64,000 nt of DNA from the NCBI GenBank assembly GCA_937873455.1, contig CALMYG010000043.1:1-64000 (forward strand). The letters run 5' to 3'. A program made the translations under genes and the position numbers. This DNA comes from an uncultured Verrucomicrobiota bacterium. Lineage in GTDB: Bacteria; Verrucomicrobiota; Kiritimatiellia; CAIVKH01. The notes under the pieces are model-generated. The model did not search any database and had not been told where the DNA came from. It was given only the letters and a program-made list of their open reading frames with translations. Below are positions 4,497 to 24,487 of the stretch, in pieces; position 1 is the first letter of the stretch; every line of letters starts with the position of its first letter.

Positions 4497-7400
4497 TCGC
4501 GCGTAAATATTTTTCCATTCTCTCGTTTGCACTGTTTGCCATATCCGCGTTCGCCAAAAACGATTGCGACACCTGCAAGCAGACCTCCCTGAAACCGCTC
4601 GACCTTTCCCGCGCACCAAGCCATGAAGAACTGATCTTATCCGGTCAGTTGGGCGGCAATCTCGCTCCCACCGGCCCGGAAAATCGAACTACGCCGGAAG
4701 ACCGTATGGCCTTTGGCCGGGCCATGGACGCCTGGAACCGGCACGATTACAAACGCGCGAAAGTGTTGCTGAAGCAACACGCCGCGCAATTCCGCAACAG
4801 CCCGTGGAAAGCTGAAGCGGAGTTGCATCTAGGCTGCGAAGCGCGGTTTAACGGCCGTTATGCCGAGGCGGAGGATTATTTTACCGCCATCCTCGCCGAG
4901 CATGCCGACAAGCAGGGCACGGCGGACGGCGAAGTCTTGCACCGTGCGGAGTTGCGCCTGGCCATGTTGGAAACCATGCGCGGCGATTTTTCAGCGGCGC
5001 GGGAAAAGTGGGCGGCCATCCTTCGCAACGATCCCGACCGCGCCCGCCGCGACTACGCGCGGCACTGGCTCTATCGTGTCGGACTCTACGAACAGAACGC
5101 GGAGTTTGTGCGGCGATGCGGCACGGAATCCCTTTCCGTTTTGTTGTCCCGCATCGGCGAGGATCAAGCCGCCCGTGAAATCCTGGCCCTGCCCGCGAAT
5201 CCCGACTACGGTTTCCGCGCCGATGAACTGGTCACGCTTGCCCGTGAACACGGCGTGAAATTAAACGGTGTCAGGGCATCGAACACCGATCATCTGCCCA
5301 CGCCCTTTCTCGCCCATTACGACTTCAAACATTTCGTCGCGGTGACCGGGCGGGATGCGGATGGAAATGTCACCGTCTTCGATCCGATCCTGAACCTTGA
5401 AACCGTCATGACCTCGGAGGAGTTTTCGCGCGAGTGGTCCGGTGTCGCACTGGTGCCGAAAGAAAAACGCGGCCTGTTCGCCGGAATCTGGAACGGCGTC
5501 GCCCGGCTTTGGCGCTCCCCTTCGAAAGACGCCCCGCTGTTGCTCGCGATGTCTGCCCTCAAGGAATTTACCGGCGGCTGTTGCGGCATCGAAAACCCCA
5601 ACACCGACGAAGGTGGCAACGTGCCCACGGTCGGCGGCAGTCGTTGTCCCAAATCCGGCAACAAGGGCTTGAGCGGTTGGACCTTCGCGCCGAGCAGCGT
5701 CAATATTTACGCCTCCGACACGCCGCTGTGGTACGAACCGGCCATCGGCCCGGACATCGAATTCACCATGAGTTACAACGCGATTGACGCGGATAACAAC
5801 CTCCCGTCCTTCGGTCCCAAGTGGATGTTTTCCTATCACAGCTACGCCGTGGAGACCCCGGCGGCGGGCAATGGCACGATCACGATCTTCATGCCCGATG
5901 GCCGAAACGACGTGTATTCGCCTATTTCCGGAACCAACACCTTCACGCCTCCGGGCCGGGTGTTCAACCAACTTGTAAAATTGGGAACGAATCAATTCAC
6001 GCTCACCATGCCGGACGGAACCGTTTACCGCTACGGCCAACCGGTCGGCGCGACGAACGTTCAACAGGCATTGCTCACCGCCATCGAAGACCGGCACTCG
6101 AACACGGTGACGCTGGCCTATGACGGCCAGCCCAATCCCAAATTGATCGCGGTGGTGGACGCGCTCTCGCAGACCTCGCGAATTTATTACGGTGGGAGCG
6201 GATTTATCACCAACATCGTGGACCCGTTCGGGCGTGGCACGGTGGTTGTTTATTCCAACAACTATGTCGCCACGGTGCGCGATATGGGCGGGGTCGAGTC
6301 GCGCTACTCGTTTTATACGAACGGGCTTGAAAAAGATTACGTACAGTCCATGCGCACCGATTGCGGCGAGGTGACGTTTACCTATGCGCTGGCTGACGGA
6401 AAGTCCACCGGCACCTGGGACCGGAGCACGTTGACCGCCACCTTTGCCGACGGATCGACGGAAGTCCTGTTTTACAACGGAATCCGAAAAACCTTTTTCA
6501 CTGACCGCAACGGCCACACCGTGGAATACGACATCGGCATTGGTTCCGCGTTTCCGTATCAAGGCCGGATCAACTCCGCGCTTTTCCCGGACGGAAACTC
6601 GGCGGCCTTCAAATACAACGCCGCGTTGCAGGTGACCAACATCACCGACGAGGCCAATCAGAACTGGCGGTATGCGTACAACGATCAAGGCCGTCTGACT
6701 GCATTGCAAATGCCGAACAATTACCGGTTGGATTTCGCCTACACCAACGGCGGGTTCGATCTCGCAAAAGTGACCGAAGCGACCAGCATTGTGGTGGCCG
6801 CGATTTCCTACACGTCAAAACGCGATGTGGAAACCGTGACCAACGCGCTCAACGAAGCCACATATTTTGCCTACGATAATTTGGGACGCCTGACCAACAT
6901 CGTGGATGCCTTGAATATCGAAACCGTGCTGGCCTACGGCCCGAACCAATGGCTGGCCAGTGTTTCCCGTGCCGGATTCACCTTGGCGACGTATCAGCAG
7001 GACGCCATCGGTCGCGTAACGAACGTGATCGGGCCGGAGAATATTTCCGCCGGGATTTCCTACGATGATCTGAATCGGCTCACCAGCTTGAATTTCGGCG
7101 ACGGCCAGCCTTATCGCTGGATCTACGAAACCAACAGCCTGTTGCGAACCTCCATGTCCGACCGCACCGGTCGCCGGGCCAAATTTGAGTACGATGCCCT
7201 GGAACGCACCAAGCGCGTCTGGTTGCCCGACAACAGTTTTGTCAGTTTCGATTACGATTCCGCCGACAACCTTACCGCCCTGTTGGACGGCAAGGGAAAC
7301 CGGACCCGGTTTGCGCGGGATTCTCGCGACCGGCTCACGCAGAAAACCTATCCGTTGGGCGATACCGTTTCTATGACGTATGACCAACGCGGATTGCCCA

Positions 7401-9511
7401 TAACCCACACCGGCGGGCGAGGCTTTATTTCCACCCTCAAATACGATGCCGCCGGTTTGCTGACCAACGTCAGTTATTCCGCGACCAACACGCCCGGTGT
7501 TCGTTACGGGTACAACAGTCGCAATTTGCTCGTCAGCATGGCCGATGGCTGGTCCACCAATACCCTTCGTTATGATGATTTAGGCCGTCTTACCAACATG
7601 CTGGAAGTCTTCGGCGCCAGCACGCAGACGTGGAACTACGCCTTTGATCCCATCGGCAGAATGACCGCCCTGACATGGCGCATCACCGGCAACACAAACT
7701 TGTTCAGGGTGTCGTACGGCTTGGATGAACTCGGCCGCGTCACCAACGTGACCGGCGATGTCGGCAGTTTCAATTACGCCTACACCAACGCGGGGTTGCA
7801 GGTGTCGCAACTCGTTTATCCGAACGGTGAAACCGCGAATTATTTTTACGACGCCATCGGGCGAATGACCAATCTGGTTTATTCCACCGGCGAATCGTGG
7901 AGTTATGATTTCGATTCCCGCGATTTTGTGACCCGTTGCGTCGATCCCACGAATAACGTGTTTACTTACGCCTACGACGAAGCCGGGCGATTAATCGAGG
8001 CGAGGGGCGTCAAGGGAACCAATATTGTTTCCGGTTATCCGTTCCACTACGATTACGACCGCGCGGGCAACCGGATCAAACAAACCGAAGGGCAGAAACA
8101 GCGGGAACTGCTCTACAACGCCAACAACCAGTTGACCCGCTCCGGGCGCACGAACATCTTGAGCGTACGCGGTTATGTCAATGAACCGGGTTCGTTGGTG
8201 TCCGTGCGCACCAGCGCGTTCACGAACTGGGTTCCCGCGACGACTCGATTCATCAGCCACACCCAGGCATATTACGAGGCGCACAACGTGCGCACGGCGA
8301 CGAATCTGTCGCTGGTGACGAATACGGTGTTTGTTCGCGCCACCGATCCGGCGGGCAACACGTCCACCAGCACGGTCAAGGTAGTCACCACTGGTCCGGC
8401 ATCCACGAGGTTTTATGCGTCCGATGCCGACGGCAATCAGACCTTTTTCCAAGAGGGACTCAATCTGCGCACCCTGACGTGGGACGCCGAGAATCGCTTG
8501 ATTCGCGTTGACTACACGAACGGCAGCAGCCGGTTTCGTTACGACGGCTGGGGACGACTGCGGGAAATCGCCGAGCATAACTCCGTCGGGACATTGACCA
8601 GTTTGGTGCGCTACGCGTGGAACGGGTATCTGCCGTGGGCGGAGTTAAATTCCACCAACGGCGTGATTCGCACCTTCACGTGGGGGCTTGATGTGTCCGG
8701 CACCGTAGGCGGCGCGGGCGGCATCGGCGGACTGGTGGGTATCCGCAGTTACATTCCGGGGACGAACTATTTTGTCCGCTCCAACGGTCGCGGAAACGTG
8801 ACCGAAGTGAGGCGTACCAACGGCGCGGTGGTCGCGAATTATTCCTATGCTCCGTACGGCCAACTGCTGACCGACACCGGGTCTTACAGCCAGCCGTTCC
8901 GGTTCCAGACAAAACTTTATCATGGCAGGTCGGGCTACACCGCGTGGCCGTTGAGATGGTACGATCCGCAGGCGGGCAGGTGGTTGAGTCGTGATTTAAT
9001 AGGTGAGGATGGAGGGATTAACCTCTTTCAGCACGTTGGAAGTAATCCGATCAACCTTATCGATCCTGATGGCCGCTTTATACTGGAATTTGCTTTGGGC
9101 GCGGCGGCAGTATATGGAATTGTAGATAGTGCTCTTAAGTTGTATAATGCGTGGCTTGACTACAAACAGGCCGAGCTAGCCAGTGATTATTACTCAGACG
9201 CGCTATCGGCCAATGATTTCGAGCGTGCAGAGAAATGCAGGAGTGAAATGATATCACTAAGCGCAGATATGGCCGCGAATATTATTCAGGGTGTTCCGGG
9301 AACAAGTATTACGGGAATGCCCCCCGGCGCTGGTCCTAAGTCGCCCGATTTTATGGAGGCTGGTCCATCGAGCTACCAACTAGGTAGGCCCGGCTACAAT
9401 AGAGTAAAAGGCTACACACGTGATGACGGCACGCATGTTCCTTCATACTATCGGCGTTCAGAGGGTTCAACCGCGCCATATCCAGAAAATGATGCAATTC
9501 GGGGTCGATAG
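4493..9511 (+). CDS. C39-peptidase/Rhs (YD-repeat) protein with variable C-terminal tip
   Basis: A 1672-residue protein. Residues 1-21 are a signal peptide and 60-200 a TPR-like helical segment. A papain-like C39-type peptidase domain follows, with candidate triad Cys209 (CGTESL), His280 (HFVAV) and Asp297 (FDP). Roughly residues 380-1480 are YD repeats, closed by the Rhs-associated core (RWYDPQAGRWLSRD to NPINLIDPDG, ending near 1526). The last ~146 residues are an unrelated tip: a long hydrophobic helix, a Gly/Pro stretch, then GYTRDDGTHVPSYYRR. In Rhs proteins the YD shell encloses a toxin released by proteolysis, so C39 cleavage of this protein or a partner is plausible but inferred. GGAAGGAG precedes the start; the ATGA overlap implies translational coupling. 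The tip's DNA is visibly more AT-rich than the core. Confidence 0.9.
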   Translation: MIARKYFSILSFALFAISAFAKNDCDTCKQTSLKPLDLSRAPSHEELILSGQLGGNLAPTGPENRTTPEDRMAFGRAMDAWNRHDYKRAKVLLKQHAAQFRNSPWKAEAELHLGCEARFNGRYAEAEDYFTAILAEHADKQGTADGEVLHRAELRLAMLETMRGDFSAAREKWAAILRNDPDRARRDYARHWLYRVGLYEQNAEFVRRCGTESLSVLLSRIGEDQAAREILALPANPDYGFRADELVTLAREHGVKLNGVRASNTDHLPTPFLAHYDFKHFVAVTGRDADGNVTVFDPILNLETVMTSEEFSREWSGVALVPKEKRGLFAGIWNGVARLWRSPSKDAPLLLAMSALKEFTGGCCGIENPNTDEGGNVPTVGGSRCPKSGNKGLSGWTFAPSSVNIYASDTPLWYEPAIGPDIEFTMSYNAIDADNNLPSFGPKWMFSYHSYAVETPAAGNGTITIFMPDGRNDVYSPISGTNTFTPPGRVFNQLVKLGTNQFTLTMPDGTVYRYGQPVGATNVQQALLTAIEDRHSNTVTLAYDGQPNPKLIAVVDALSQTSRIYYGGSGFITNIVDPFGRGTVVVYSNNYVATVRDMGGVESRYSFYTNGLEKDYVQSMRTDCGEVTFTYALADGKSTGTWDRSTLTATFADGSTEVLFYNGIRKTFFTDRNGHTVEYDIGIGSAFPYQGRINSALFPDGNSAAFKYNAALQVTNITDEANQNWRYAYNDQGRLTALQMPNNYRLDFAYTNGGFDLAKVTEATSIVVAAISYTSKRDVETVTNALNEATYFAYDNLGRLTNIVDALNIETVLAYGPNQWLASVSRAGFTLATYQQDAIGRVTNVIGPENISAGISYDDLNRLTSLNFGDGQPYRWIYETNSLLRTSMSDRTGRRAKFEYDALERTKRVWLPDNSFVSFDYDSADNLTALLDGKGNRTRFARDSRDRLTQKTYPLGDTVSMTYDQRGLPITHTGGRGFISTLKYDAAGLLTNVSYSATNTPGVRYGYNSRNLLVSMADGWSTNTLRYDDLGRLTNMLEVFGASTQTWNYAFDPIGRMTALTWRITGNTNLFRVSYGLDELGRVTNVTGDVGSFNYAYTNAGLQVSQLVYPNGETANYFYDAIGRMTNLVYSTGESWSYDFDSRDFVTRCVDPTNNVFTYAYDEAGRLIEARGVKGTNIVSGYPFHYDYDRAGNRIKQTEGQKQRELLYNANNQLTRSGRTNILSVRGYVNEPGSLVSVRTSAFTNWVPATTRFISHTQAYYEAHNVRTATNLSLVTNTVFVRATDPAGNTSTSTVKVVTTGPASTRFYASDADGNQTFFQEGLNLRTLTWDAENRLIRVDYTNGSSRFRYDGWGRLREIAEHNSVGTLTSLVRYAWNGYLPWAELNSTNGVIRTFTWGLDVSGTVGGAGGIGGLVGIRSYIPGTNYFVRSNGRGNVTEVRRTNGAVVANYSYAPYGQLLTDTGSYSQPFRFQTKLYHGRSGYTAWPLRWYDPQAGRWLSRDLIGEDGGINLFQHVGSNPINLIDPDGRFILEFALGAAAVYGIVDSALKLYNAWLDYKQAELASDYYSDALSANDFERAEKCRSEMISLSADMAANIIQGVPGTSITGMPPGAGPKSPDFMEAGPSSYQLGRPGYNRVKGYTRDDGTHVPSYYRRSEGSTAPYPENDAIRGR

Positions 9512-9513
9512 TA

Positions 9514-9888
9514 ATGATGATGGCCAACGAGAACAGTTCTAATCTCAATTCTATAAGACGGCGTTATGGAAGAAGGCGAATTGTGTATTCCATCATCATT
9601 GGATTAATGGTGCTCAGGTTGTTTACTCATGGATACCGCCTTGTTTCGGCTGTTCAATATGAGCGTGGAGTTTTCGATTATAGGCAGGCTGTTTCAATGT
9701 TTGTTGGCGGCGGTATAAACAAAGCTCGCTGTTATCCTGGTCATCTTGTGGAGTTTGCCCATTCGTATGTTTTGGGCCTTGTCGAAATTCTACTTCTTAC
9801 TGTACTTCTCTTGGCTGTCAGAGGGAATTTTCGATGCTATGCTTTGTTGTTGGCCGAACACACGAGAAATCAGGATGTCGCCTCATAG
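9514..9888 (+). CDS. Small membrane protein, candidate immunity protein
   Basis: A 124-residue protein starting two bases after the Rhs stop (three consecutive ATG codons). A basic N-terminus is followed by one hydrophobic helix near residues 25-45 and another near 88-108. No family is recognised. The position directly behind a polymorphic-toxin tip, the membrane topology and an AT-rich composition shared with the tip fit an immunity protein; that is inference from context. The 3' end overlaps the next small gene. Confidence 0.6.
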   Translation: MMMANENSSNLNSIRRRYGRRRIVYSIIIGLMVLRLFTHGYRLVSAVQYERGVFDYRQAVSMFVGGGINKARCYPGHLVEFAHSYVLGLVEILLLTVLLLAVRGNFRCYALLLAEHTRNQDVAS

Positions 9889-10069
9889 TGGAATCCTTCC
9901 ACGGCTGATCCGCTTCGCAACCGGTTTTTTCCTTGGGGGATTGATCGGTTATTATTTCTTCCTGAGGTCTCACAGTGTGTTGAACTCATCATTTCAACCG
10001 CTCTTGATGCACATATTTGTTCCTGGTGTGGCATTCGGATTATTATTCGTAGTGTCACGAAACGAATGA
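9875..10069 (+). CDS. Small two-helix membrane protein
   Basis: A 64-residue frame (MSPHSGILPRLIRF...) overlapping the previous gene by 14 bases, as expected for coupled translation. It has two hydrophobic segments (about 12-28 and 44-60) around a short polar loop. The same frame is open upstream to 9746, but that part lies wholly inside the previous gene and is probably not translated. It could be a second immunity component. It could also be the out-of-frame 3' part of one longer gene broken by a frameshift near 9880, since both pieces are membrane proteins. Confidence 0.5.
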   Translation: MSPHSGILPRLIRFATGFFLGGLIGYYFFLRSHSVLNSSFQPLLMHIFVPGVAFGLLFVVSRNE

Positions 10070-10454
10070 TGCCCGAAGTTGCCGAAAAGTTTAACATCGC
10101 CGATGACAACGGCATGCTTCGTGATGTGATCTTCAACCTCAGATCGGAGCGAGCCGGGCCTCGGGAAAGCCCCAACCCCCGACCCCCGGCCTGTCACGGC
10201 ATCTGCTGTCGCACATGCCGCGCCAGTCCGCCCCGAAGACCCCACGCCCCTCCGCGCATCACGCGCTCTTGCCCTCACTCGCTTGGGGCTCGTTCGGTCA
10301 AGCCCGCGTCATGCGCTCCGCCCCCAGCGGACCACGCGAAGCGCGTGGCAAGCTCGCTACGCTCGACGCGCGCGCCCGCAGGAGCCGCGCCAGTCGGTAC
10401 TCGTCGAAGCGTCGAGAACCGCCTGTCACGCCTCCTGCTACACCCCCACGCCGA

Positions 10455-10559
10455 AACAAAAGCCACATTATGCGTCCGTTCGTCGAAGACTCCTCACACG
10501 TCGCGGGAATCCCTCGGCTTCGCCGTTTCCCGCGTCGTCGCATAATGTGCTCTTTTGTT
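10455..10559. repeat. Interrupted inverted repeat with nested hairpin
   Basis: The left arm 10455-10474 (AACAAAAGCCACATTATGCG) and right arm 10539-10559 pair almost perfectly, with one extra base in the right arm. Inside, CGCGGGAA (10502-10509) and TTCCCGCG (10527-10534) form a second, nested hairpin with a short GGCTTCGCC tip. Nested cruciform architecture of this kind is typical of sites acted on as single strands. Confidence 0.7.
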
Positions 10560-10804
10560 CCGGCGCCACCCGGCGCGCGCTGAAAGGCGCTTCGCTTAGC
10601 GTCCCCCTTGGGCCGTAGCCCCCGGCCTGGGGGCTGGCCCGTTGGTCGGGCCGGTCACACGGCTCGGCGCACCTCGCACGTGCCCGGCCCTCCGCGGACC
10701 TCGGCTATCGCCGAGTTCAATAAAATAGCCCCGGCACCCATCGCGCCCATGTGCGCAAAGCCGCCCATGGTCACGCTGGCTGCTCGCACCCCGAAGATCT
10801 GCGG

Positions 10805-10857
10805 ACACTTTTTCCTTTCGCCGCCGAAGATGGTGGGGCGGCGAAAGAAAAAAGTGT
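10805..10857. terminator. Strong bidirectional hairpin (terminator-like)
   Basis: Arms 10805-10825 and 10837-10857 form a 21-bp stem with a single mismatch and an 11-base loop. The stem has A/T-rich bases, so on either strand a U-rich run follows the GC-rich GGCGGCGAAAG core, with TTTTT after the right arm. It lies downstream of the leftward zinc-ribbon gene and could end that transcript. Confidence 0.6.
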
Positions 10858-10861
10858 TTTT

Positions 10862-10908
10862 GTCCAATGGTTGGAAAAGTGCCGGTGAAAAAGTTCCAAT
10901 CATTGGAA
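10862..10908. repeat. Composite palindrome (15-17-15)
   Basis: GTCCAATGGTTGGAA (10862-10876), a 17-base spacer, then TTCCAATCATTGGAA (10894-10908). The same architecture and near-same palindromes recur at 43977-44023 inside a coding gene. This looks like a dispersed palindromic element family. Confidence 0.75.
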
Positions 10909-10911
10909 ATG

Positions 10912-11175
10912 TCAGCGCGGCGTGTCGTATTCGTCGTTGCGCCAGGTCAAACCGATGCCCTTTGATTCGACGGACTGCACCCAGCCGCAAGCCGGACACC
11001 ACACCACGCGCAACGGTAAACGCAGTTCGGAAAAATACGCGCCGCGCGGCGGCGCGACCGCTTCAAAGGAAACCGAATCGCTGGGAATCTTCCGGTTACG
11101 CACAAGCGCGGTGTGACACGCGGGACATGTTCCGAGATTTGCGTTGTCGTCGCTCATATCGTCCCGCTGTGTCAC
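10912..11175 (-). CDS. Small zinc-ribbon protein
   Basis: An 87-residue leftward protein with two CPAC knuckles (about residues 17-20 and 60-63) separated by some 40 residues, the layout of a four-cysteine zinc ribbon. It starts at a GTG overlapping the stop of the XRE gene (GTGA); an ATG six codons later is an alternative. Its cotranslation with the repressor suggests a regulatory or DNA/protein-binding accessory role. No family name can be given. Confidence 0.72.
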   Translation of the reverse strand: MTQRDDMSDDNANLGTCPACHTALVRNRKIPSDSVSFEAVAPPRGAYFSELRLPLRVVWCPACGWVQSVESKGIGLTWRNDEYDTPR

Positions 11176-11597
11176 GGACGATTTTTAAGCACCGAGTCGA
11201 GCAGTTCGGTCAAAAACTTTTGTTTGGATTTCGGCAGTTTGCGGATTTCCTCCAACTGCCGTTCAAGTGTCGCCGGAGGTCCAGGTCGTTTGCGCGGAGC
11301 GCGCGTGTCCGCGCGCCCAATCAAATCCGATACGGAGACCTTGAGCAGATCAGCGGCTTTTTCGATGAACTCCAAGGTCGGGTTTTTCGCCCGGCTTTCG
11401 TAGTACGCGATCATGCTCCGGGTCATGCCGAGCTTGTCGGCCAGTTCCTGCTGGGACAGGCCGCGGCGTTCACGCGCGGCGGCCAGCCGTTGTCCGAACG
11501 GCGGCGCTTCTTTCATGGGTGGTCTTCCTGCCATGTCGCCAGCATACGGCATGGTTTTGTTTTTTTGTCTCATCTCGGGTTTTTTGCTTGTCTGCAT
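11172..11597 (-). CDS. XRE/Cro-CI family transcriptional regulator
   Basis: A 141-residue frame with a classic helix-turn-helix of the Cro/CI class (FGQRLAAARERRGLSQQEL...GMTRSMIAYYESRAKNPTLEFIEKAADLL, about residues 34-90) and a basic, helical C-terminal tail. The longest start abuts the operator; internal Met codons at residues 16, 22 and 28 are equally possible, and the conserved domain begins only after them. It is divergent from the integrase and shares an AT-rich control region with it, as expected of the lysogeny-type repressor of an integrative element. It is cotranslated with the zinc-ribbon gene. Confidence 0.9.
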   Translation of the reverse strand: MQTSKKPEMRQKNKTMPYAGDMAGRPPMKEAPPFGQRLAAARERRGLSQQELADKLGMTRSMIAYYESRAKNPTLEFIEKAADLLKVSVSDLIGRADTRAPRKRPGPPATLERQLEEIRKLPKSKQKFLTELLDSVLKNRP

Positions 11598-11640
11598 TGT
11601 TAATTATAGTTAACAATATGGCGTGAGGTTAACAATAACC
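11597..11640. promoter_or_regulatory. Operator/promoter between repressor and integrase
   Basis: TTGTTAA (11597-11603), a 6-base spacer and TTAACAA (11610-11616) form a perfect inverted repeat; a further half-site pair GTTAACAATAAC lies at 11629-11640. On the minus strand TATAAT (11608-11603) lies inside the first operator, so a bound regulator would block its own promoter. Autoregulation by the adjacent XRE protein is inferred from position and symmetry. Confidence 0.72.
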
Positions 11641-11665
11641 ATTTTTGCGAGCCTCCGAACTTGAC

Positions 11666-12799
11666 ATGATCACCCGCCGACACAGCTTGAGCCGCGACCC
11701 CCGGACCGGGATTTTCTACGCCAAAATCCAGGTCGATAAGATCCGTCGCCGGTTCACCTTCGGCAAGAATCGCAAGGCGGCGGAATCGGCATTGCGAAAA
11801 CTCGAACGGGAACTGGTGACCGGTGAAATGTCTTTCTGCGAACAGCCGACCGCTCCGACGGCTCCGCCGGAAACGGGACTGTTGTTGTCGGAGTTGATCG
11901 CAAAACATCTGGAATGGGTGCTGAACAACCGAAGCCGGGGAACCTACGAGGTGCGCCGCCACTTTCTGACCGGCTTCAAAAAGTTCACCGGGGAATGTCC
12001 GGTCAACCGGATCGACCGGATCACGCTGGAAAACTTCGTCGCCTGGGCGCGTAAGCATCACGCCAAAAGCGGTAACGGCGGGGTGGCTTATCTGCGCCAT
12101 GTGAAAACGATGTTTTTGTGGGCGGATGAAGTCGGGTTGTGTCCGTGTCCGGTTCGGCGTTTTCCCCGAGCGACCGAGGCGGCCGCACCGACCCGGCGTT
12201 TTACCGATGACGAGTTGGAAAAGTTGTTCCGGCAGGTGTCATCCGGGTTCAAGGACTTTCGGGACATGGTGTACTTCGGCCTGTTGACCGGCTTGAGGCC
12301 GCAGGAGTTGCGTCAATTACAGCGCGATCACATCTTGCGCGACAGCGAGGGTAACTTTTTCGTGATGATCCAGGAGCACAAGACGGCGAGGACAGCCCGT
12401 CAACCGATGGGGCGAAGTGTGCCGTTGACCGACGAGGCGGCGGAAATCGTCCGGCGTCAACTACACGCGCACACGTCGTCTTCGTTTGTGTTCTTGAACG
12501 CGGATAGCAAGCCGTACAAGGCGCACACCTTCCGTCAACGTTTTATGCGTTGGTGTAAACGCGCCGAAGTCGCTCCGCGTCCGCCGTACGCGTTGCGTCA
12601 TACGTTCGGCAGCATGGAAGCCGAGGCGAACATCAACCAGACCAGCTTGAGCCAGTTAATGGGGCATACCACGATCCGCACCACCGCCCGTTACATCTCC
12701 AACAATTACGATCATCACCGCAACGCCATCGGCGCGATTGTTGGCCGCGTAAAAACGCTCACCGGCCCCACGCTCACCGTGCTCGACAAGACCGCGTAA
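11666..12799 (+). CDS. Tyrosine-type site-specific recombinase (element integrase)
   Basis: A 377-residue integrase from the ATG at 11666 (a TTG seven codons upstream keeps the frame open). It has an N-terminal AP2-like arm-binding segment, a core-binding SAM-like domain (about 85-165), and a catalytic domain with Arg in TGLRPQEL, the YxxRH variant YALRHTFGS (Tyr replacing the usual His of HxxR), LMGHTTIRTTARY and the nucleophilic Tyr in ARYIS. It is the last gene before the att site, as usual for integrases, and should catalyse integration and excision at the anticodon-loop att core. Expression is likely controlled by the operator upstream. Confidence 0.94.
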   Translation: MITRRHSLSRDPRTGIFYAKIQVDKIRRRFTFGKNRKAAESALRKLERELVTGEMSFCEQPTAPTAPPETGLLLSELIAKHLEWVLNNRSRGTYEVRRHFLTGFKKFTGECPVNRIDRITLENFVAWARKHHAKSGNGGVAYLRHVKTMFLWADEVGLCPCPVRRFPRATEAAAPTRRFTDDELEKLFRQVSSGFKDFRDMVYFGLLTGLRPQELRQLQRDHILRDSEGNFFVMIQEHKTARTARQPMGRSVPLTDEAAEIVRRQLHAHTSSSFVFLNADSKPYKAHTFRQRFMRWCKRAEVAPRPPYALRHTFGSMEAEANINQTSLSQLMGHTTIRTTARYISNNYDHHRNAIGAIVGRVKTLTGPTLTVLDKTA

Positions 12800-12880
12800 T
12801 CACGCGGCCACTTTGTGACCAAATCCCGTCCGAAAATCCGCCCGACCGGGCGCAAGTGGTCACATGCCAAAATAAAGAAA

Positions 12881-12899
12881 CCCCTTGATAATCAAGGGG
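12881..12899 (-). terminator. Terminator carried with the tRNA 3' half
   Basis: CCCCTTGA/TCAAGGGG form an 8-bp stem with a 3-base loop. Read on the minus strand it is followed by TTTCTTTATTTT and lies just downstream of the tRNA-Val 3' half, so it is the tRNA terminator captured by the element. It may also stop the integrase transcript. Confidence 0.75.
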
Positions 12900-12903
12900 A
12901 AAA

Positions 12904-12952
12904 TGGTGGGCGATACAGGACTCGAACCTGTGACCTCTTCCATGTCAAGGAA
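12904..12952 (-). other. tRNA-Val(GAC) 3' half at the element junction
   Basis: The minus strand reads anticodon loop TTGACAT (anticodon GAC), a GGAAG anticodon-stem strand, a complete T arm, the 3' acceptor strand ATCGCCC, discriminator A and CCA. Its 3' region differs at two positions from the intact tRNA-Val at 40689-40765. There is no acceptor 5' strand or D arm upstream, so it is not a functional tRNA. It is the attP arm that would restore a split tRNA-Val. Confidence 0.85.
12938..12952. other. Central att core between the two element copies
   Basis: TTCCATGTCAAGGAA with element-type bases on both sides, that is, an intact attP-like junction. Recombination between it and either outer site would excise one copy as a circle. 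Confidence 0.85.
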
Positions 12953-13469
12953 AGGATCACCGCCACGGAATTAGAAGCAATCGAATTCCATTTTGCCCAT
13001 GTATTCAGGTGAATTCCAGGTGTGACCCGTCCTTGCCCTGATGTCGGAAATTTGATCTGCGACCATTCATGTGACCACTTTTTCCCGAAACTTTCCCTTG
13101 CTGGGTTTTGCGGTTCAGGCTGACACTTACGCCATGTTTTGCGGTTCTCGACAAACGAAGGATGTCTTAAAATATTTCCGATCTTGGGGATTGCCTTCGT
13201 TGCGAATCGCGTTCTATGATGAGCACCGCGATGGGTCAATTGTCCCGTCGACTTGTTCTTTACATTTTAGTTTTTGCGTTTTACGCAGAGTCGTTTCACA
13301 CGAAAACCGCGAACTTTTGATCCATGAAGCGAGACATGCGGAGGCGCGCCCCATCGGGCGCGGCTCCCTGTCTTATGTTTCATGGATGGGGCTTCGCGGT
13401 CCCTCGTGTGAGGCATGAGCTAGGAGTTCGCGCCTCTTCTTTTTTGAGGCGCAAATAAAGGAGGATAAA
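12953..13469. other. Gene-free left end, copy 2
   Basis: Identical to 131-647: leader of the cargo operon with a possible promoter, GC-rich inverted repeats and the 7-bp stem hairpin (13430-13452). No gene is seen. Confidence 0.5.
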
Positions 13470-16400
13470 ATGAGGAAATTTATTGTTTCGCATGGTCGCC
13501 GCTTCGCGGCGCTGATAACCGTGCTCGGTGTATCCGCGATCACGTTGGCGTTTTCAAACGTCGAAAAAACCGAGAGTGATTCCGTCATCAACCCTGACGA
13601 ATACGAATTCCTGATGTCGTTCAAGGTCGGCGATATTTACGACCTCGAACAATATTTCGTGCTTCATCAATACGATTATCTTCCCATCACGCCGCCCCCG
13701 GCGGATTTCATCCTGCAACAGTCCGGCATGCCCGATGTTCTGCCGTTCGATGGCAAGGCGTTTCCTAAAGAATTTATCGCCGGACTTGTCGGCACGTACG
13801 AATACAGCGCATTGGTTTATCCGCTCGTCGTGATCGAGGAGCCGAAAACACGCGAGATAGTTTTCCTCAATTCCGAGGGCAAGGAAATCTACAGTCTTCC
13901 GCCCGCGCCGGGTTACGATCCATACGCCTACCTCAAAAGCCGTTGGGCGGCCCTGTATTCAGGCAAAGCCTCTTTGCAAGCCGTGAATTATTGGCAAGGG
14001 ATTTACGATCCCGCCCGCGTTCAACTGCGGACCAAGTTGATTCCGATTGAGAATGTGGAGCCGTACCTGTTTGCCCAAGCCAAGGTGATGGAGGCCGCCG
14101 CTATGATGCAGGAGGAGGATGAAGGCGGCGGCATGATGATGCTGATGGAGGGCGAATCCGACAGCAACATTGTGTTTACCGCCATTTATAAAACCAACAG
14201 CGTGGCCGTCACCATCGCCTACCCGGAGGATTTTACCAACCGATTGGATATTTACACCTGCAATGACCTGCTCGCGGAAATATGGTCGTTTGCCGTCCGC
14301 GAATTGCCGACCACGGGAACCAATCAAATCACCTGGATCGACACGAATGCATGGATTCAGACCGGCTTGCCGGTACGATTTTACGCAGCGGGAAATGCCG
14401 ATCTGGATACCGACGGCGACGGCTACGCCGACGCGCGGGAAATCATGGTTTATAAAACCGATCATGAGGACATCGATTCCCACCCGGTCAAAGTGTCCGG
14501 CACGGTCAGTTACTCCGGCATCGAAACCGGTTCGATCTTTGTCGTATGGGTGACCGACTCGAATAGCTGGTCCATTGCCAAATCGATCACGTTGCCCGGC
14601 CCCGCCGCCTATACCAACGAAGAAGTCGGCAACAATGAAAGCTACTGGATCAAGGCGTTTCGCGATGCAAACGGAAACAACACGCTCGACGCGTGGGAGC
14701 CGAGGGGAATTTACAGCGACAACTCAACCTTGATCACCGGCGATATTTCCGGGGTCAACATTACGATGGCCGATGTTCCGTCGATATGGGGAACCATCGA
14801 CTACATTGGAAGCGCGACCGGCGATATCTATGTCATCGCGGTGACGTCCTCGAACAGTTGGGACATGACCTATAAAACCGTCATTCCGTGGTCGCAGGGT
14901 GAAACCAACGACCTGGGCGGCGGCACGTTCTATGTGTCATTTCCCGTCGAGTACACGATCACCGGACTGCCGTCCTCCAATTATTTCATACGCGCGTTTA
15001 TCGATTCGGACGCAAACGCCATGTTCTCGCTGGGCGAAGCGGCGGGACAATACGCCTCCAATGGAATTCCCGTCAGCAACCGTGTGACGGGAATTGATTT
15101 TACCCTCGATCTGGATTCCGACGGCGATGAGATGCCGGATTGGTGGGAGTGGCAATATGGGTTTGATCCGTTCGACGATGGCGATATGCGTCTTGATCGC
15201 GACAACGACGGGGCGGAAAACTACAAGGAATTCCTTTTCGGGACGGACCCCGATAATCCCGATACCGACGGCGACGGCATGCCGGACGGTTGGGAAATTC
15301 TCTACGGCCTTGCGCCGCTTGATCCCGCCGACGCCTTCGGAGATATCGACAACGATGGCTTGAATAATGTGGACGAATATCTTCGCGGCACGTTTCCCGA
15401 CAACCCTGACAGCGATGGGGATTTTATTTCCGATGGAACCAACACGCTGGGAAGCGGAGCGGCGACCATCTACCGTGGACCCGACCCAAATCCGTTGACG
15501 CCCGCGCCCGGCAATCTGGCTCTTCGCTATGTGTCGAAAGCCGGACGTAGCATCGTGGCGAAGGAAGATCGTTACGGTCGCCCGGTCGTGGCGTGGCAGG
15601 CCAACGACGATCAGGGCAAGGCGCAGGTGTACGTGATGCAGTGGTTCGGCGCACCGATGGATGCCAGCCTTGAAAGCTGGGCTGACCTGTCCGGGCGGTG
15701 GGAGCAATTCGGAGGTTCGGCCATCAATCGCGGGGTAACGGCGGCCACTAACGGAATCTTCAGCTTCGACATGGCGCTGGACCGCGACGATTCCCCGGTC
15801 GTTACCTGGGTGGAACAAAGAACTCCGCCCGCCCGCGTATATCTCCTCCGGTGGAGCGCGACCAATTGGGTGCAGAATGGAAATTCGTATTCAAGCGGTA
15901 TCGCCGATGTGTTGGTGAATTCGTTTTCGGCAAGCACCAAGCAGCACACGAACACGATCGCTATCAATGGTGTGACCAACGGCACGATCTTCTACGCACG
16001 GGTGACGAATTGGTTTGATCGTGTGGCCGTCGCGGTGAACACGCAGAATCAACCGGTGGTCGTTTCGTTGCGTCCGGCGAATCCGACGGCGGTTCAACTT
16101 AGGCGGTTTAACGGGACAAATTGGGTGGGCATTTCCGGGTCCGCCCAAGATTCAGGAATCACCGGCCTCGGCAGTTATTTCAATCCGCAAATCGAAATCG
16201 GTCCCGACAATCGACCGGTCGTGACGTATTGGGACGCCTGGGCCTATTACTGCCGCAAGTGGGACGGTTCATCTTCGTGGCCGAATCTCGGCAGTAACAT
16301 CGGCGTGGTGGACAACACCCACGGCGCGTACGATCTTTGTTCGTTGTCCGTCAACGAGAGCAACATCGTGCATTTCGGCTGGTTGCAGTATCGCGCCCGG

Positions 16401-17318
16401 ATCATGACCAACAACGTCCTGTTGCCGCCGAAGCATGGTTTTTGGGTGCGCCGTTTCGTGGGCGGCTCGTGGGCCAATATCGGCTCTTCCGGCTCCGGCA
16501 TCGGTTTGCACAAGGACATCACCAGCGAAATCGATTCCCGCAGTCTCTCGATTTCCTGCCGGGGTACCGGCGAAACGTTGGCGGTGTGGGCGCAATGGAC
16601 CGGTGCGTCATCGCCGTTCGTTTTCGCCCGCCGCGCCCAGGGGACGAACTGGTTTGATCTGGGCGGTTCCTACACGAACAACGGCGTTAATTACGCCGGA
16701 GCCAGCGTCAACGCGGTCGCCGGTTTGACTTCATTGGGTTCGCCGATAGCGATCTATGCAGCCCAATGGAGCGGTTCCAATCACAAGTTACAGGCCCGGC
16801 AATTTGTGGCGGACAGCGACGGCGACGGGTTGAGCGATTTATATGAGCAGGCCATCGGCTTGAATCCAAACTCCAGCGATTCGGATAACGACGGCGTTTC
16901 CGACTGGGACGAAATATTTCTTTATGGTACGGACCCTCTTTCAGATGATTCTGATGGCGATGGGTTGCTCGACGGCGAAGAAGTCAACGGCACGAAATGG
17001 GGCATTTGGAGCGATCCGCTCAACCCCGACACCGACGGCGACGGGATACTTGACGGCTGTGATCCCTATGTCAATTCACCTCAAGGCGATCAAGACGGCG
17101 ATGGCTTACCCGATGAACTTGATCCGGATATCGACAACGACGGAATTTCCAACGACGATGAATTGATCCTCGGCACGAACCCTTACAATCCTGACACCGA
17201 TTGCGATGGCGTACCTGATGGCGAGGACGCAGACCCTCTTGACCCCGATACCCAGGGCGCGGACACCACGCCGCCCGTCATCATCATTATAGAACCCGTG
17301 GAAGGAGCTTTGCCATGA
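13470..17318 (+). CDS. Secreted TSP3-repeat / beta-propeller-like protein (copy 2)
   Basis: Residue-for-residue the same 1282-aa protein as 648-4496: signal peptide, two beta-sandwich repeats, two TSP3 calcium-binding blocks around a propeller-like region, and the abrupt TTPPVI end. The same AAGGAGG ribosome-binding site precedes it and the same ATGA overlap joins it to the Rhs gene. Identity over this length, without any silent-frame change, argues for very recent duplication. Confidence 0.88.
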   Translation: MRKFIVSHGRRFAALITVLGVSAITLAFSNVEKTESDSVINPDEYEFLMSFKVGDIYDLEQYFVLHQYDYLPITPPPADFILQQSGMPDVLPFDGKAFPKEFIAGLVGTYEYSALVYPLVVIEEPKTREIVFLNSEGKEIYSLPPAPGYDPYAYLKSRWAALYSGKASLQAVNYWQGIYDPARVQLRTKLIPIENVEPYLFAQAKVMEAAAMMQEEDEGGGMMMLMEGESDSNIVFTAIYKTNSVAVTIAYPEDFTNRLDIYTCNDLLAEIWSFAVRELPTTGTNQITWIDTNAWIQTGLPVRFYAAGNADLDTDGDGYADAREIMVYKTDHEDIDSHPVKVSGTVSYSGIETGSIFVVWVTDSNSWSIAKSITLPGPAAYTNEEVGNNESYWIKAFRDANGNNTLDAWEPRGIYSDNSTLITGDISGVNITMADVPSIWGTIDYIGSATGDIYVIAVTSSNSWDMTYKTVIPWSQGETNDLGGGTFYVSFPVEYTITGLPSSNYFIRAFIDSDANAMFSLGEAAGQYASNGIPVSNRVTGIDFTLDLDSDGDEMPDWWEWQYGFDPFDDGDMRLDRDNDGAENYKEFLFGTDPDNPDTDGDGMPDGWEILYGLAPLDPADAFGDIDNDGLNNVDEYLRGTFPDNPDSDGDFISDGTNTLGSGAATIYRGPDPNPLTPAPGNLALRYVSKAGRSIVAKEDRYGRPVVAWQANDDQGKAQVYVMQWFGAPMDASLESWADLSGRWEQFGGSAINRGVTAATNGIFSFDMALDRDDSPVVTWVEQRTPPARVYLLRWSATNWVQNGNSYSSGIADVLVNSFSASTKQHTNTIAINGVTNGTIFYARVTNWFDRVAVAVNTQNQPVVVSLRPANPTAVQLRRFNGTNWVGISGSAQDSGITGLGSYFNPQIEIGPDNRPVVTYWDAWAYYCRKWDGSSSWPNLGSNIGVVDNTHGAYDLCSLSVNESNIVHFGWLQYRARIMTNNVLLPPKHGFWVRRFVGGSWANIGSSGSGIGLHKDITSEIDSRSLSISCRGTGETLAVWAQWTGASSPFVFARRAQGTNWFDLGGSYTNNGVNYAGASVNAVAGLTSLGSPIAIYAAQWSGSNHKLQARQFVADSDGDGLSDLYEQAIGLNPNSSDSDNDGVSDWDEIFLYGTDPLSDDSDGDGLLDGEEVNGTKWGIWSDPLNPDTDGDGILDGCDPYVNSPQGDQDGDGLPDELDPDIDNDGISNDDELILGTNPYNPDTDCDGVPDGEDADPLDPDTQGADTTPPVIIIIEPVEGALP

Positions 17319-20300
17319 TCGCGCGTAAATATTTTTCCATTCTCTCGTTTGCACTGTTTGCCATATCCGCGTTCGCCAAAAACGATTGCGACACCTGCAA
17401 GCAGACCTCCCTGAAACCGCTCGACCTTTCCCGCGCACCAAGCCATGAAGAACTGATCTTATCCGGTCAGTTGGGCGGCAATCTCGCTCCCACCGGCCCG
17501 GAAAATCGAACTACGCCGGAAGACCGTATGGCCTTTGGCCGGGCCATGGACGCCTGGAACCGGCACGATTACAAACGCGCGAAAGTGTTGCTGAAGCAAC
17601 ACGCCGCGCAATTCCGCAACAGCCCGTGGAAAGCTGAAGCGGAGTTGCATCTAGGCTGCGAAGCGCGGTTTAACGGCCGTTATGCCGAGGCGGAGGATTA
17701 TTTTACCGCCATCCTCGCCGAGCATGCCGACAAGCAGGGCACGGCGGACGGCGAAGTCTTGCACCGTGCGGAGTTGCGCCTGGCCATGTTGGAAACCATG
17801 CGCGGCGATTTTTCAGCGGCGCGGGAAAAGTGGGCGGCCATCCTTCGCAACGATCCCGACCGCGCCCGCCGCGACTACGCGCGGCACTGGCTCTATCGTG
17901 TCGGACTCTACGAACAGAACGCGGAGTTTGTGCGGCGATGCGGCACGGAATCCCTTTCCGTTTTGTTGTCCCGCATCGGCGAGGATCAAGCCGCCCGTGA
18001 AATCCTGGCCCTGCCCGCGAATCCCGACTACGGTTTCCGCGCCGATGAACTGGTCACGCTTGCCCGTGAACACGGCGTGAAATTAAACGGTGTCAGGGCA
18101 TCGAACACCGATCATCTGCCCACGCCCTTTCTCGCCCATTACGACTTCAAACATTTCGTCGCGGTGACCGGGCGGGATGCGGATGGAAATGTCACCGTCT
18201 TCGATCCGATCCTGAACCTTGAAACCGTCATGACCTCGGAGGAGTTTTCGCGCGAGTGGTCCGGTGTCGCACTGGTGCCGAAAGAAAAACGCGGCCTGTT
18301 CGCCGGAATCTGGAACGGCGTCGCCCGGCTTTGGCGCTCCCCTTCGAAAGACGCCCCGCTGTTGCTCGCGATGTCTGCCCTCAAGGAATTTACCGGCGGC
18401 TGTTGCGGCATCGAAAACCCCAACACCGACGAAGGTGGCAACGTGCCCACGGTCGGCGGCAGTCGTTGTCCCAAATCCGGCAACAAGGGCTTGAGCGGTT
18501 GGACCTTCGCGCCGAGCAGCGTCAATATTTACGCCTCCGACACGCCGCTGTGGTACGAACCGGCCATCGGCCCGGACATCGAATTCACCATGAGTTACAA
18601 CGCGATTGACGCGGATAACAACCTCCCGTCCTTCGGTCCCAAGTGGATGTTTTCCTATCACAGCTACGCCGTGGAGACCCCGGCGGCGGGCAATGGCACG
18701 ATCACGATCTTCATGCCCGATGGCCGAAACGACGTGTATTCGCCTATTTCCGGAACCAACACCTTCACGCCTCCGGGCCGGGTGTTCAACCAACTTGTAA
18801 AATTGGGAACGAATCAATTCACGCTCACCATGCCGGACGGAACCGTTTACCGCTACGGCCAACCGGTCGGCGCGACGAACGTTCAACAGGCATTGCTCAC
18901 CGCCATCGAAGACCGGCACTCGAACACGGTGACGCTGGCCTATGACGGCCAGCCCAATCCCAAATTGATCGCGGTGGTGGACGCGCTCTCGCAGACCTCG
19001 CGAATTTATTACGGTGGGAGCGGATTTATCACCAACATCGTGGACCCGTTCGGGCGTGGCACGGTGGTTGTTTATTCCAACAACTATGTCGCCACGGTGC
19101 GCGATATGGGCGGGGTCGAGTCGCGCTACTCGTTTTATACGAACGGGCTTGAAAAAGATTACGTACAGTCCATGCGCACCGATTGCGGCGAGGTGACGTT
19201 TACCTATGCGCTGGCTGACGGAAAGTCCACCGGCACCTGGGACCGGAGCACGTTGACCGCCACCTTTGCCGACGGATCGACGGAAGTCCTGTTTTACAAC
19301 GGAATCCGAAAAACCTTTTTCACTGACCGCAACGGCCACACCGTGGAATACGACATCGGCATTGGTTCCGCGTTTCCGTATCAAGGCCGGATCAACTCCG
19401 CGCTTTTCCCGGACGGAAACTCGGCGGCCTTCAAATACAACGCCGCGTTGCAGGTGACCAACATCACCGACGAGGCCAATCAGAACTGGCGGTATGCGTA
19501 CAACGATCAAGGCCGTCTGACTGCATTGCAAATGCCGAACAATTACCGGTTGGATTTCGCCTACACCAACGGCGGGTTCGATCTCGCAAAAGTGACCGAA
19601 GCGACCAGCATTGTGGTGGCCGCGATTTCCTACACGTCAAAACGCGATGTGGAAACCGTGACCAACGCGCTCAACGAAGCCACATATTTTGCCTACGATA
19701 ATTTGGGACGCCTGACCAACATCGTGGATGCCTTGAATATCGAAACCGTGCTGGCCTACGGCCCGAACCAATGGCTGGCCAGTGTTTCCCGTGCCGGATT
19801 CACCTTGGCGACGTATCAGCAGGACGCCATCGGTCGCGTAACGAACGTGATCGGGCCGGAGAATATTTCCGCCGGGATTTCCTACGATGATCTGAATCGG
19901 CTCACCAGCTTGAATTTCGGCGACGGCCAGCCTTATCGCTGGATCTACGAAACCAACAGCCTGTTGCGAACCTCCATGTCCGACCGCACCGGTCGCCGGG
20001 CCAAATTTGAGTACGATGCCCTGGAACGCACCAAGCGCGTCTGGTTGCCCGACAACAGTTTTGTCAGTTTCGATTACGATTCCGCCGACAACCTTACCGC
20101 CCTGTTGGACGGCAAGGGAAACCGGACCCGGTTTGCGCGGGATTCTCGCGACCGGCTCACGCAGAAAACCTATCCGTTGGGCGATACCGTTTCTATGACG
20201 TATGACCAACGCGGATTGCCCATAACCCACACCGGCGGGCGAGGCTTTATTTCCACCCTCAAATACGATGCCGCCGGTTTGCTGACCAACGTCAGTTATT

Positions 20301-22333
20301 CCGCGACCAACACGCCCGGTGTTCGTTACGGGTACAACAGTCGCAATTTGCTCGTCAGCATGGCCGATGGCTGGTCCACCAATACCCTTCGTTATGATGA
20401 TTTAGGCCGTCTTACCAACATGCTGGAAGTCTTCGGCGCCAGCACGCAGACGTGGAACTACGCCTTTGATCCCATCGGCAGAATGACCGCCCTGACATGG
20501 CGCATCACCGGCAACACAAACTTGTTCAGGGTGTCGTACGGCTTGGATGAACTCGGCCGCGTCACCAACGTGACCGGCGATGTCGGCAGTTTCAATTACG
20601 CCTACACCAACGCGGGGTTGCAGGTGTCGCAACTCGTTTATCCGAACGGTGAAACCGCGAATTATTTTTACGACGCCATCGGGCGAATGACCAATCTGGT
20701 TTATTCCACCGGCGAATCGTGGAGTTATGATTTCGATTCCCGCGATTTTGTGACCCGTTGCGTCGATCCCACGAATAACGTGTTTACTTACGCCTACGAC
20801 GAAGCCGGGCGATTAATCGAGGCGAGGGGCGTCAAGGGAACCAATATTGTTTCCGGTTATCCGTTCCACTACGATTACGACCGCGCGGGCAACCGGATCA
20901 AACAAACCGAAGGGCAGAAACAGCGGGAACTGCTCTACAACGCCAACAACCAGTTGACCCGCTCCGGGCGCACGAACATCTTGAGCGTACGCGGTTATGT
21001 CAATGAACCGGGTTCGTTGGTGTCCGTGCGCACCAGCGCGTTCACGAACTGGGTTCCCGCGACGACTCGATTCATCAGCCACACCCAGGCATATTACGAG
21101 GCGCACAACGTGCGCACGGCGACGAATCTGTCGCTGGTGACGAATACGGTGTTTGTTCGCGCCACCGATCCGGCGGGCAACACGTCCACCAGCACGGTCA
21201 AGGTAGTCACCACTGGTCCGGCATCCACGAGGTTTTATGCGTCCGATGCCGACGGCAATCAGACCTTTTTCCAAGAGGGACTCAATCTGCGCACCCTGAC
21301 GTGGGACGCCGAGAATCGCTTGATTCGCGTTGACTACACGAACGGCAGCAGCCGGTTTCGTTACGACGGCTGGGGACGACTGCGGGAAATCGCCGAGCAT
21401 AACTCCGTCGGGACATTGACCAGTTTGGTGCGCTACGCGTGGAACGGGTATCTGCCGTGGGCGGAGTTAAATTCCACCAACGGCGTGATTCGCACCTTCA
21501 CGTGGGGGCTTGATGTGTCCGGCACCGTAGGCGGCGCGGGCGGCATCGGCGGACTGGTGGGTATCCGCAGTTACATTCCGGGGACGAACTATTTTGTCCG
21601 CTCCAACGGTCGCGGAAACGTGACCGAAGTGAGGCGTACCAACGGCGCGGTGGTCGCGAATTATTCCTATGCTCCGTACGGCCAACTGCTGACCGACACC
21701 GGGTCTTACAGCCAGCCGTTCCGGTTCCAGACAAAACTTTATCATGGCAGGTCGGGCTACACCGCGTGGCCGTTGAGATGGTACGATCCGCAGGCGGGCA
21801 GGTGGTTGAGTCGTGATTTAATAGGTGAGGATGGAGGGATTAACCTCTTTCAGCACGTTGGAAGTAATCCGATCAACCTTATCGATCCTGATGGCCGCTT
21901 TATACTGGAATTTGCTTTGGGCGCGGCGGCAGTATATGGAATTGTAGATAGTGCTCTTAAGTTGTATAATGCGTGGCTTGACTACAAACAGGCCGAGCTA
22001 GCCAGTGATTATTACTCAGACGCGCTATCGGCCAATGATTTCGAGCGTGCAGAGAAATGCAGGAGTGAAATGATATCACTAAGCGCAGATATGGCCGCGA
22101 ATATTATTCAGGGTGTTCCGGGAACAAGTATTACGGGAATGCCCCCCGGCGCTGGTCCTAAGTCGCCCGATTTTATGGAGGCTGGTCCATCGAGCTACCA
22201 ACTAGGTAGGCCCGGCTACAATAGAGTAAAAGGCTACACACGTGATGACGGCACGCATGTTCCTTCATACTATCGGCGTTCAGAGGGTTCAACCGCGCCA
22301 TATCCAGAAAATGATGCAATTCGGGGTCGATAG
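17315..22333 (+). CDS. C39-peptidase/Rhs protein (copy 2)
   Basis: The same 1672-aa protein as 4493-9511, with Cys209/His280/Asp297 C39 triad candidates, YD-repeat shell, Rhs-associated core and the same C-terminal tip. Both copies have the same tip, so the duplication has not generated toxin diversity; Rhs loci with several tips usually do so by exchanging the 3' end after the core. Confidence 0.9.
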   Translation: MIARKYFSILSFALFAISAFAKNDCDTCKQTSLKPLDLSRAPSHEELILSGQLGGNLAPTGPENRTTPEDRMAFGRAMDAWNRHDYKRAKVLLKQHAAQFRNSPWKAEAELHLGCEARFNGRYAEAEDYFTAILAEHADKQGTADGEVLHRAELRLAMLETMRGDFSAAREKWAAILRNDPDRARRDYARHWLYRVGLYEQNAEFVRRCGTESLSVLLSRIGEDQAAREILALPANPDYGFRADELVTLAREHGVKLNGVRASNTDHLPTPFLAHYDFKHFVAVTGRDADGNVTVFDPILNLETVMTSEEFSREWSGVALVPKEKRGLFAGIWNGVARLWRSPSKDAPLLLAMSALKEFTGGCCGIENPNTDEGGNVPTVGGSRCPKSGNKGLSGWTFAPSSVNIYASDTPLWYEPAIGPDIEFTMSYNAIDADNNLPSFGPKWMFSYHSYAVETPAAGNGTITIFMPDGRNDVYSPISGTNTFTPPGRVFNQLVKLGTNQFTLTMPDGTVYRYGQPVGATNVQQALLTAIEDRHSNTVTLAYDGQPNPKLIAVVDALSQTSRIYYGGSGFITNIVDPFGRGTVVVYSNNYVATVRDMGGVESRYSFYTNGLEKDYVQSMRTDCGEVTFTYALADGKSTGTWDRSTLTATFADGSTEVLFYNGIRKTFFTDRNGHTVEYDIGIGSAFPYQGRINSALFPDGNSAAFKYNAALQVTNITDEANQNWRYAYNDQGRLTALQMPNNYRLDFAYTNGGFDLAKVTEATSIVVAAISYTSKRDVETVTNALNEATYFAYDNLGRLTNIVDALNIETVLAYGPNQWLASVSRAGFTLATYQQDAIGRVTNVIGPENISAGISYDDLNRLTSLNFGDGQPYRWIYETNSLLRTSMSDRTGRRAKFEYDALERTKRVWLPDNSFVSFDYDSADNLTALLDGKGNRTRFARDSRDRLTQKTYPLGDTVSMTYDQRGLPITHTGGRGFISTLKYDAAGLLTNVSYSATNTPGVRYGYNSRNLLVSMADGWSTNTLRYDDLGRLTNMLEVFGASTQTWNYAFDPIGRMTALTWRITGNTNLFRVSYGLDELGRVTNVTGDVGSFNYAYTNAGLQVSQLVYPNGETANYFYDAIGRMTNLVYSTGESWSYDFDSRDFVTRCVDPTNNVFTYAYDEAGRLIEARGVKGTNIVSGYPFHYDYDRAGNRIKQTEGQKQRELLYNANNQLTRSGRTNILSVRGYVNEPGSLVSVRTSAFTNWVPATTRFISHTQAYYEAHNVRTATNLSLVTNTVFVRATDPAGNTSTSTVKVVTTGPASTRFYASDADGNQTFFQEGLNLRTLTWDAENRLIRVDYTNGSSRFRYDGWGRLREIAEHNSVGTLTSLVRYAWNGYLPWAELNSTNGVIRTFTWGLDVSGTVGGAGGIGGLVGIRSYIPGTNYFVRSNGRGNVTEVRRTNGAVVANYSYAPYGQLLTDTGSYSQPFRFQTKLYHGRSGYTAWPLRWYDPQAGRWLSRDLIGEDGGINLFQHVGSNPINLIDPDGRFILEFALGAAAVYGIVDSALKLYNAWLDYKQAELASDYYSDALSANDFERAEKCRSEMISLSADMAANIIQGVPGTSITGMPPGAGPKSPDFMEAGPSSYQLGRPGYNRVKGYTRDDGTHVPSYYRRSEGSTAPYPENDAIRGR

Positions 22334-22335
22334 TA

Positions 22336-22710: not shown

Positions 22711-22891
22711 TGGAATCCTTCCACGGCTGATCCGCTTCGCAACCGGTTTTTTCCTTGGGGGATTGATCGGTTATTATTTCTTCCTGAGGTCTCACAGTGT
22801 GTTGAACTCATCATTTCAACCGCTCTTGATGCACATATTTGTTCCTGGTGTGGCATTCGGATTATTATTCGTAGTGTCACGAAACGAATGA
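22697..22891 (+). CDS. Small two-helix membrane protein (copy 2)
   Basis: Identical to 9875-10069: 64 residues overlapping the preceding gene by 14 bases. The overlap is the same in both copies, so if it is really a frameshift it predates the duplication. Confidence 0.5.
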   Translation: MSPHSGILPRLIRFATGFFLGGLIGYYFFLRSHSVLNSSFQPLLMHIFVPGVAFGLLFVVSRNE

Positions 22892-24419: not shown

Positions 24420-24462
24420 TGTTAATTATAGTTAACAATATGGCGTGAGGTTAACAATAACC
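24419..24462. promoter_or_regulatory. Operator/promoter between repressor and integrase (copy 2)
   Basis: The same TTGTTAA-N6-TTAACAA inverted repeat and neighbouring half-site pair as at 11597-11640, overlapping the leftward TATAAT box. Confidence 0.72.
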
Positions 24463-24487
24463 ATTTTTGCGAGCCTCCGAACTTGAC

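Follow-up and report, generated by a model that had tools for sequence, protein, structure and literature searches.

The window, by which we mean the entire 64,000-nucleotide stretch analysed here, opens contig C43 in an assembly of 197 contigs, from a genome of 4.12 Mb that is 92.6% complete. The contig begins inside a tRNA-Asn(GTT) gene (1–55, plus strand), leaving its 3′ part (1–54) in the left chromosomal flank; the same 55 bases open contig C1, which carries the complete gene. A 12,822-bp unit follows and is present twice head to tail (copy 1, 116–12937; copy 2, 12938–25759; both on the plus strand), the copies being 100% identical with 0 differences between them. Beyond the second copy lie the terminator hairpin of a neighbouring chromosomal gene (25811–25855, minus strand), a 136-aa chromosomal gene (25918–26328, minus strand) and the resident tRNA-Val(GAC) gene (40689–40765, plus strand).

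Each copy of the element encodes a 1282-aa protein with bacterial TSP3 repeats (648–4496 and 13470–17318, plus strand; PF18884, 3e-14) and a 1672-aa RHS/YD-repeat protein with a peptidase C39 domain (4493–9511 and 17315–22333, plus strand; PF05593, PF03412, TIGR03696), both annotated as cargo, followed by a 124-aa ORF that matched no family in the family searches (9514–9888 and 22336–22710, plus strand). The RHS protein has a distinct C-terminal tail ahead of the 124-aa ORF (4493–9888), and this arrangement resembles that of a polymorphic toxin gene with a candidate immunity gene behind it. A 141-aa HTH repressor-like protein (11172–11597 and 23994–24419, minus strand; PF01381, 1e-15; phrog_8) and a 384-aa tyrosine integrase (11645–12799 and 24467–25621, plus strand; PF00589, 4e-24; alignment A1) complete the annotated genes. 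No relaxase or conjugation family was found in the six element ORFs scanned, and the element is not classed as an ICE.

Junctions and the captured tRNA half

A 15-bp core, TTCCATGTCAAGGAA (TTCC-ATGTCAA-GGAA), marks the left junction (attL, 116–130), the attP-type junction between the copies (12938–12952) and the right junction (attR, 25760–25774), after which the chromosome reads on as GGGATCAACGG vs AGGATCACCGC in the element. These three insertion copies are the only ones in the 4.12-Mb genome at one mismatch or fewer, and ~0.004 chance copies are expected at the genome's base composition. On the minus strand, positions 12904–12952 form the 3′ half of a tRNA-Val(GAC) gene, from the anticodon stem-loop through the CCA, with a second copy at the right junction (25726–25774). 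This half is identical at 49/49 positions to the complete tRNA-Val gene of genome G077 and at 48/49 to those of G040, G013 and G032, and is therefore not a chance resemblance. Behind it stands a hairpin, CCCCTTGATTATCAAGGGG, that resembles a terminator and has a weak T-tract (12869–12899 and 25691–25721, minus strand). The first-pass annotation had described the core as the anticodon stem-loop of tRNA-Val(GAC) and the element as carrying the matching 3′ half, CCA and terminator, and both descriptions hold, with the terminator seen as the terminator-like hairpin.

Neither chromosomal flank contains a tRNA-Val 5′ half, as the same annotation had reported, though its account of the tRNA content of the flanks left out the tRNA-Asn 3′ part on the left. 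No displaced tRNA fragment was found at the host locus and no complete tRNA is restored at either end, for which reason we do not file the insertion as a tRNA island. An orphan tRNA half is no proof of insertion into a tRNA gene.

The start of contig C43 overlaps an end of contig C1 by exactly 55 bases, which points to de Bruijn assembly with k=55. A short-read assembly of this kind cannot resolve identical 12.8-kb repeats and may write a loop twice, so the tandem arrangement is not secure, and we set aside the argument that the duplication proves two copies. The left, right and attP-type junctions are all supported; a tandem array, or one insert together with an excised circle, may have yielded them, since either would produce all three.

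Target sites of related integrases

The residues Arg218, Lys246, Arg318, His341 and Tyr350 are invariant in the eight integrases of alignment A1. Tyrosine recombinases usually have a histidine in the HxxR box; the corresponding position is a tyrosine in all eight aligned sequences (PYALRH, PYSLRH or PYDLRH), among them the integrase at 24467–25621.

Related integrases with 37–47% identity adjoin complete tRNA-Val, tRNA-Ala or tRNA-Pro genes, namely Val-GAC in G048 (contig C12) and, at a distance of ~800 bp, in G003, Ala-CGC in G095 and Pro-GGG in G364, while shorter integrase fragments adjoin Val-GAC in G058 and Val-CAC in G049 (loci L042 and L046 for Val-GAC, L044/L084 for Val-GAC at ~800 bp, L043 for Ala-CGC, L077/L082 for Pro-GGG and L047 for Val-CAC). 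In G003, a member of the host's family, the tRNA-Val lies at 40.04 kb and its displaced 3′ half at 50.01 kb; in G095 the tRNA-Ala lies at 29.2 kb and its displaced 3′ half at 51.5 kb. The repeat identity begins exactly at the anticodon loop in both genomes. In G040, a tRNA-Val gene that contains the exact core of the host element is accompanied by the remnant of an integrase (52% identity). The host locus shares with anticodon-loop tRNA islands a tyrosine integrase (PF00589) at the element end and an attP side holding a tRNA 3′ half that includes the anticodon loop; it lacks the pairing of a complete tRNA at one end with a displaced 3′ fragment at the opposite end, which G003 and G095 have. 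By comparison with these relatives, the host-element integrase is an ordinary anticodon-loop tRNA integrase, predicted to recombine attP with the secondary attB.

No tRNA lies near the integrase in G144 and G077, and these two, together with contig C46 of G048, were left out of the support for tRNA targeting. A related element already occupies the tRNA-Val of G048 (on contig C12). An orphan tRNA-Val 3′ half near position 1280 of contig C46 in this genome (L041/L074) is joined to non-tRNA DNA with a PEP-CTERM-like gene; it may mark another insertion at a secondary site, or else a tandem junction with the C12 element. In G144 (L040), an anticodon-like sequence, CTACATTGACATGGTAG, is found near position 1241 in the opposite orientation, ~230 bp behind the integrase and with no surrounding tRNA. 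The G144 and G048 contigs checked for circularity had no end overlap. Phage and plasmid records gave only weak integrase homologs (22–32% identity), which were not used, and a search of viral contigs with the integrase, alignment A1 and the attP pattern returned nothing. A scan of genome contigs with alignment A1 found 5 loci, all apparently in genomes already covered, after a first scan without matches.

Core recognition and the host tRNA-Val

The two arms of attP, GTGATCCTTTCC and GTGACCTCTTCC, are imperfect inverted repeats of each other (9/12). Inverted arms flanking a 7-bp overlap are the standard core-site layout of tyrosine integrases, and for the anticodon class the 7-bp overlap should fall at the anticodon loop (PMC8371274). 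The inverted-arm core seen here is therefore the textbook layout and involves no new principle. The first-pass annotation had proposed that the integrase recognizes the hairpin-like symmetry of the core, a proposal that is unsupported in this form: the host genome contains 308 TTCC-N7-GGAA palindromes (34 for the reversed control pattern), so symmetry by itself cannot guide the element to its site. The site used also carries ATGTCAA and so matches all 7 bases of the tRNA loop, which is the expected strand-exchange overlap, and the 7-bp loop apparently must match in addition to the arms. On one side the similarity to the element extends through GGATCA and, after one mismatch, CG (10/12 arm bases), so that the secondary site matches the attP core at 15/15 positions plus part of one arm.

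Many of the 308 sites belong to a dispersed palindrome family, TTCCAAnnnTTGGAA, typically paired exactly 32 bp apart (for example at 43977–44023 and at L115–L120). A related, less regular palindrome pair lies inside the mobile element (10876–10908 and 23698–23730).

A search with the pattern TAGAGCRCTNNNTTGACATNNNAGRGGTC recovered one tRNA-Val(GAC) gene in each of eight family genomes. Six of them (G001, G002, G003, G005, G006 and G007, which include the sister species) have a TTCC/GGAA anticodon stem and the exact 15-bp core, and the remaining two, the host and G004, have TTGC/GCAA. The TTCC stem is likewise found in other families of the class, and the TTGC state of the host therefore looks derived; synteny did not establish orthology between the tRNA-Val of G001 and that of the host. 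The difference amounts to a compensatory change of one stem pair, which places two mismatches in the core arms. The resident gene is intact, as the annotation had stated, but its stem reads TTGC/GCAA and differs from the core at 2 positions; this loss of the exact core by the host tRNA-Val had been missed. No primary attB was recovered in the host: there is no core at one mismatch or fewer besides the insertion, and the sole tRNA-Val(GAC) found in the 92.6% complete genome has the TTGC stem.

We consider it likely that the locus records secondary-site integration by a tyrosine integrase of the anticodon class, the core having been lost from the tRNA-Val of this host. Integrases of this group would normally recombine within the anticodon loop, whose 7 bp read TTGACAT in tRNA-Val(GAC), and would use the inner bases of the stem as inverted core-binding arms; the tRNA 3′ half at the element end would restore the target gene. 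With one stem pair changed, the host tRNA-Val(GAC) would no longer offer the exact core; the element would then have entered an intergenic secondary site that matches 15/15 core bases, and the insertion would have left the tRNA-Val half orphaned. The position of the element at the only exact match fits a stem change that breaks the core in the host tRNA. That this change is the reason for the unused primary site is what we infer, as are the exact positions of the strand cuts. Against this reading, the resident tRNA-Val matches 13/15 core bases including the whole overlap, which some integrases would tolerate, and 92.6% completeness leaves some room for a second tRNA-Val. The earlier suggestion that the element is adapted to a tRNA-Val target and sits at a non-tRNA site agrees with the tRNA targets (Val and others) of the integrase group and with a site that is not tRNA-Val.

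The studies cited here document integration at secondary sites, once the primary one is gone, from laboratory deletions (ICEBs1, PMC3715440; SGI1, PMC2297512). In Bacillus subtilis, the attB of ICEBs1 is a 17-bp stem-loop in a tRNA-Leu gene with 5-bp arms and a 7-bp overlap, and ICEBs1 without its primary attB enters genic or intergenic core-like sites (PMC3715440). The present element resembles it in having a stem-loop primary attB in a tRNA gene and a secondary site resembling the core, but the attB of ICEBs1 was deleted in the laboratory whereas here a natural substitution altered the host tRNA stem, and the element lacks visible conjugation genes. SGI1 has a secondary intergenic site, sodB-purR, and where the primary site was absent, 100% of the transconjugants carried tandem arrays (PMC2297512). 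The use of an intergenic secondary site when the primary is missing is common to both. Tandem copies were demonstrated for SGI1 by PFGE and Southern blot, and here the two identical copies of the k=55 assembly are a candidate tandem; the primary site of SGI1, unlike ours, is the 3′ end of thdF and not a tRNA. A real tandem would fit the behaviour of SGI1 at its secondary site.

The part of the Islander account that describes tRNA islands with an anticodon-centred att site (PMC4383910, citing Williams 2002) matches our case in the tyrosine integrase, the attP with a tRNA 3′ half and the crossover region in the loop, the last as shown in the relatives; it differs in that no tRNA is reconstituted and no displaced fragment is present at the host locus. 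Lysogeny of mycobacteriophage Fionnbharth is tRNA-dependent: the phage brings a full tRNA of its own, and the host gene is disrupted (PMC10865867). A short common core at a tRNA and secondary sites used if the tRNA strategy fails are shared with our element; the full phage-borne tRNA, the disrupted host gene and secondary sites with little shared core are peculiar to the phage. Nature seems to have performed here the deletion type of experiment, as the compensatory stem change keeps the pairing and removes the exact att core. The locus is a natural example of a behaviour known from the laboratory, with no new mechanism, and it suggests that stem changes in host tRNAs could be barriers to tRNA-targeting elements.

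The flanking locus and alternative readings

In G001, G002, G003, G005, G006 and G007, tRNA-Asn comes after the 136-aa gene in the same orientation, and TTGAC stands between them, 42–54 bp ahead of the tRNA. No tRNA-Val lies between the two genes in any relative that has the locus; the check that had been proposed for a full tRNA-Val spanning the empty site thus found tRNA-Asn only. The empty site itself, with the flanks joined and the element missing, was not found in any genome searched. In the host, the core follows the 136-aa gene and the tRNA-Asn beyond the element is oppositely oriented, inverted relative to all relatives checked; the flanks may therefore not have adjoined before the insertion, and the pre-insertion site is uncertain. 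The host tRNA-Asn promoter, with TTGACAT 46 bp before the tRNA, lies on contig C1, the contig with the exact 55-base overlap to the start of the window.

The −35 consensus TTGACA is part of TTGACAT, the anticodon-loop sequence of tRNA-Val(GAC). A refinement of the favoured reading would be that the element entered the tRNA-Asn promoter at its −35 region and that the integrase then inverted a short tRNA-Asn segment between TTGACAT sites. The conserved TTGAC before the same-strand tRNA-Asn in the six relatives agrees with it, as do the inverted host tRNA-Asn and the presence of TTGACAT both in the gene-side core and in the promoter on C1. We nevertheless regard it as rather unlikely: any tRNA promoter may be expected to contain TTGACA, the link between C1 and C43 rests on the 55-base overlap only, and the two species of the genus have different DNA beyond tRNA-Asn, so that an unrelated, older rearrangement is possible. 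If the refinement were true, integrases targeting this anticodon would find ready-made fallback sites in tRNA promoters.

The tRNA-Val half would instead be a relic if the integrase had shifted its specificity to intergenic symmetric stem-loops. Such a shift could account for the match between attP and the site beyond the core and for the integrases of G144 and G077 that have no tRNA nearby. A half that matches the complete tRNA-Val of another genome at 49/49 positions is no decayed relic, however, only the one palindrome with the tRNA loop sequence was used among 308, and no second independent intergenic insertion of the same element is known; we judge the shift improbable. Scarcely credible is an ordinary insertion into a tRNA-Val gene whose two halves were both lost afterwards. 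The 3′ half on the element is what speaks for it, but each flank would have had to lose its half exactly at the core and yet keep the core arms, and we reject a former tRNA-Val at the site because the relatives that have the locus show tRNA-Asn only and the right flank holds a gene terminator ~40 bp from the junction. The preferred reading remains integration at a secondary site by a tRNA-targeting integrase.

In each of the two species of the genus, a contig breaks at the tRNA-Asn gene (1–55 of the window and the start of C1, L053; L034 and L059). The difference between the two species in the DNA downstream of this gene fits a rearrangement or an integration hot spot.
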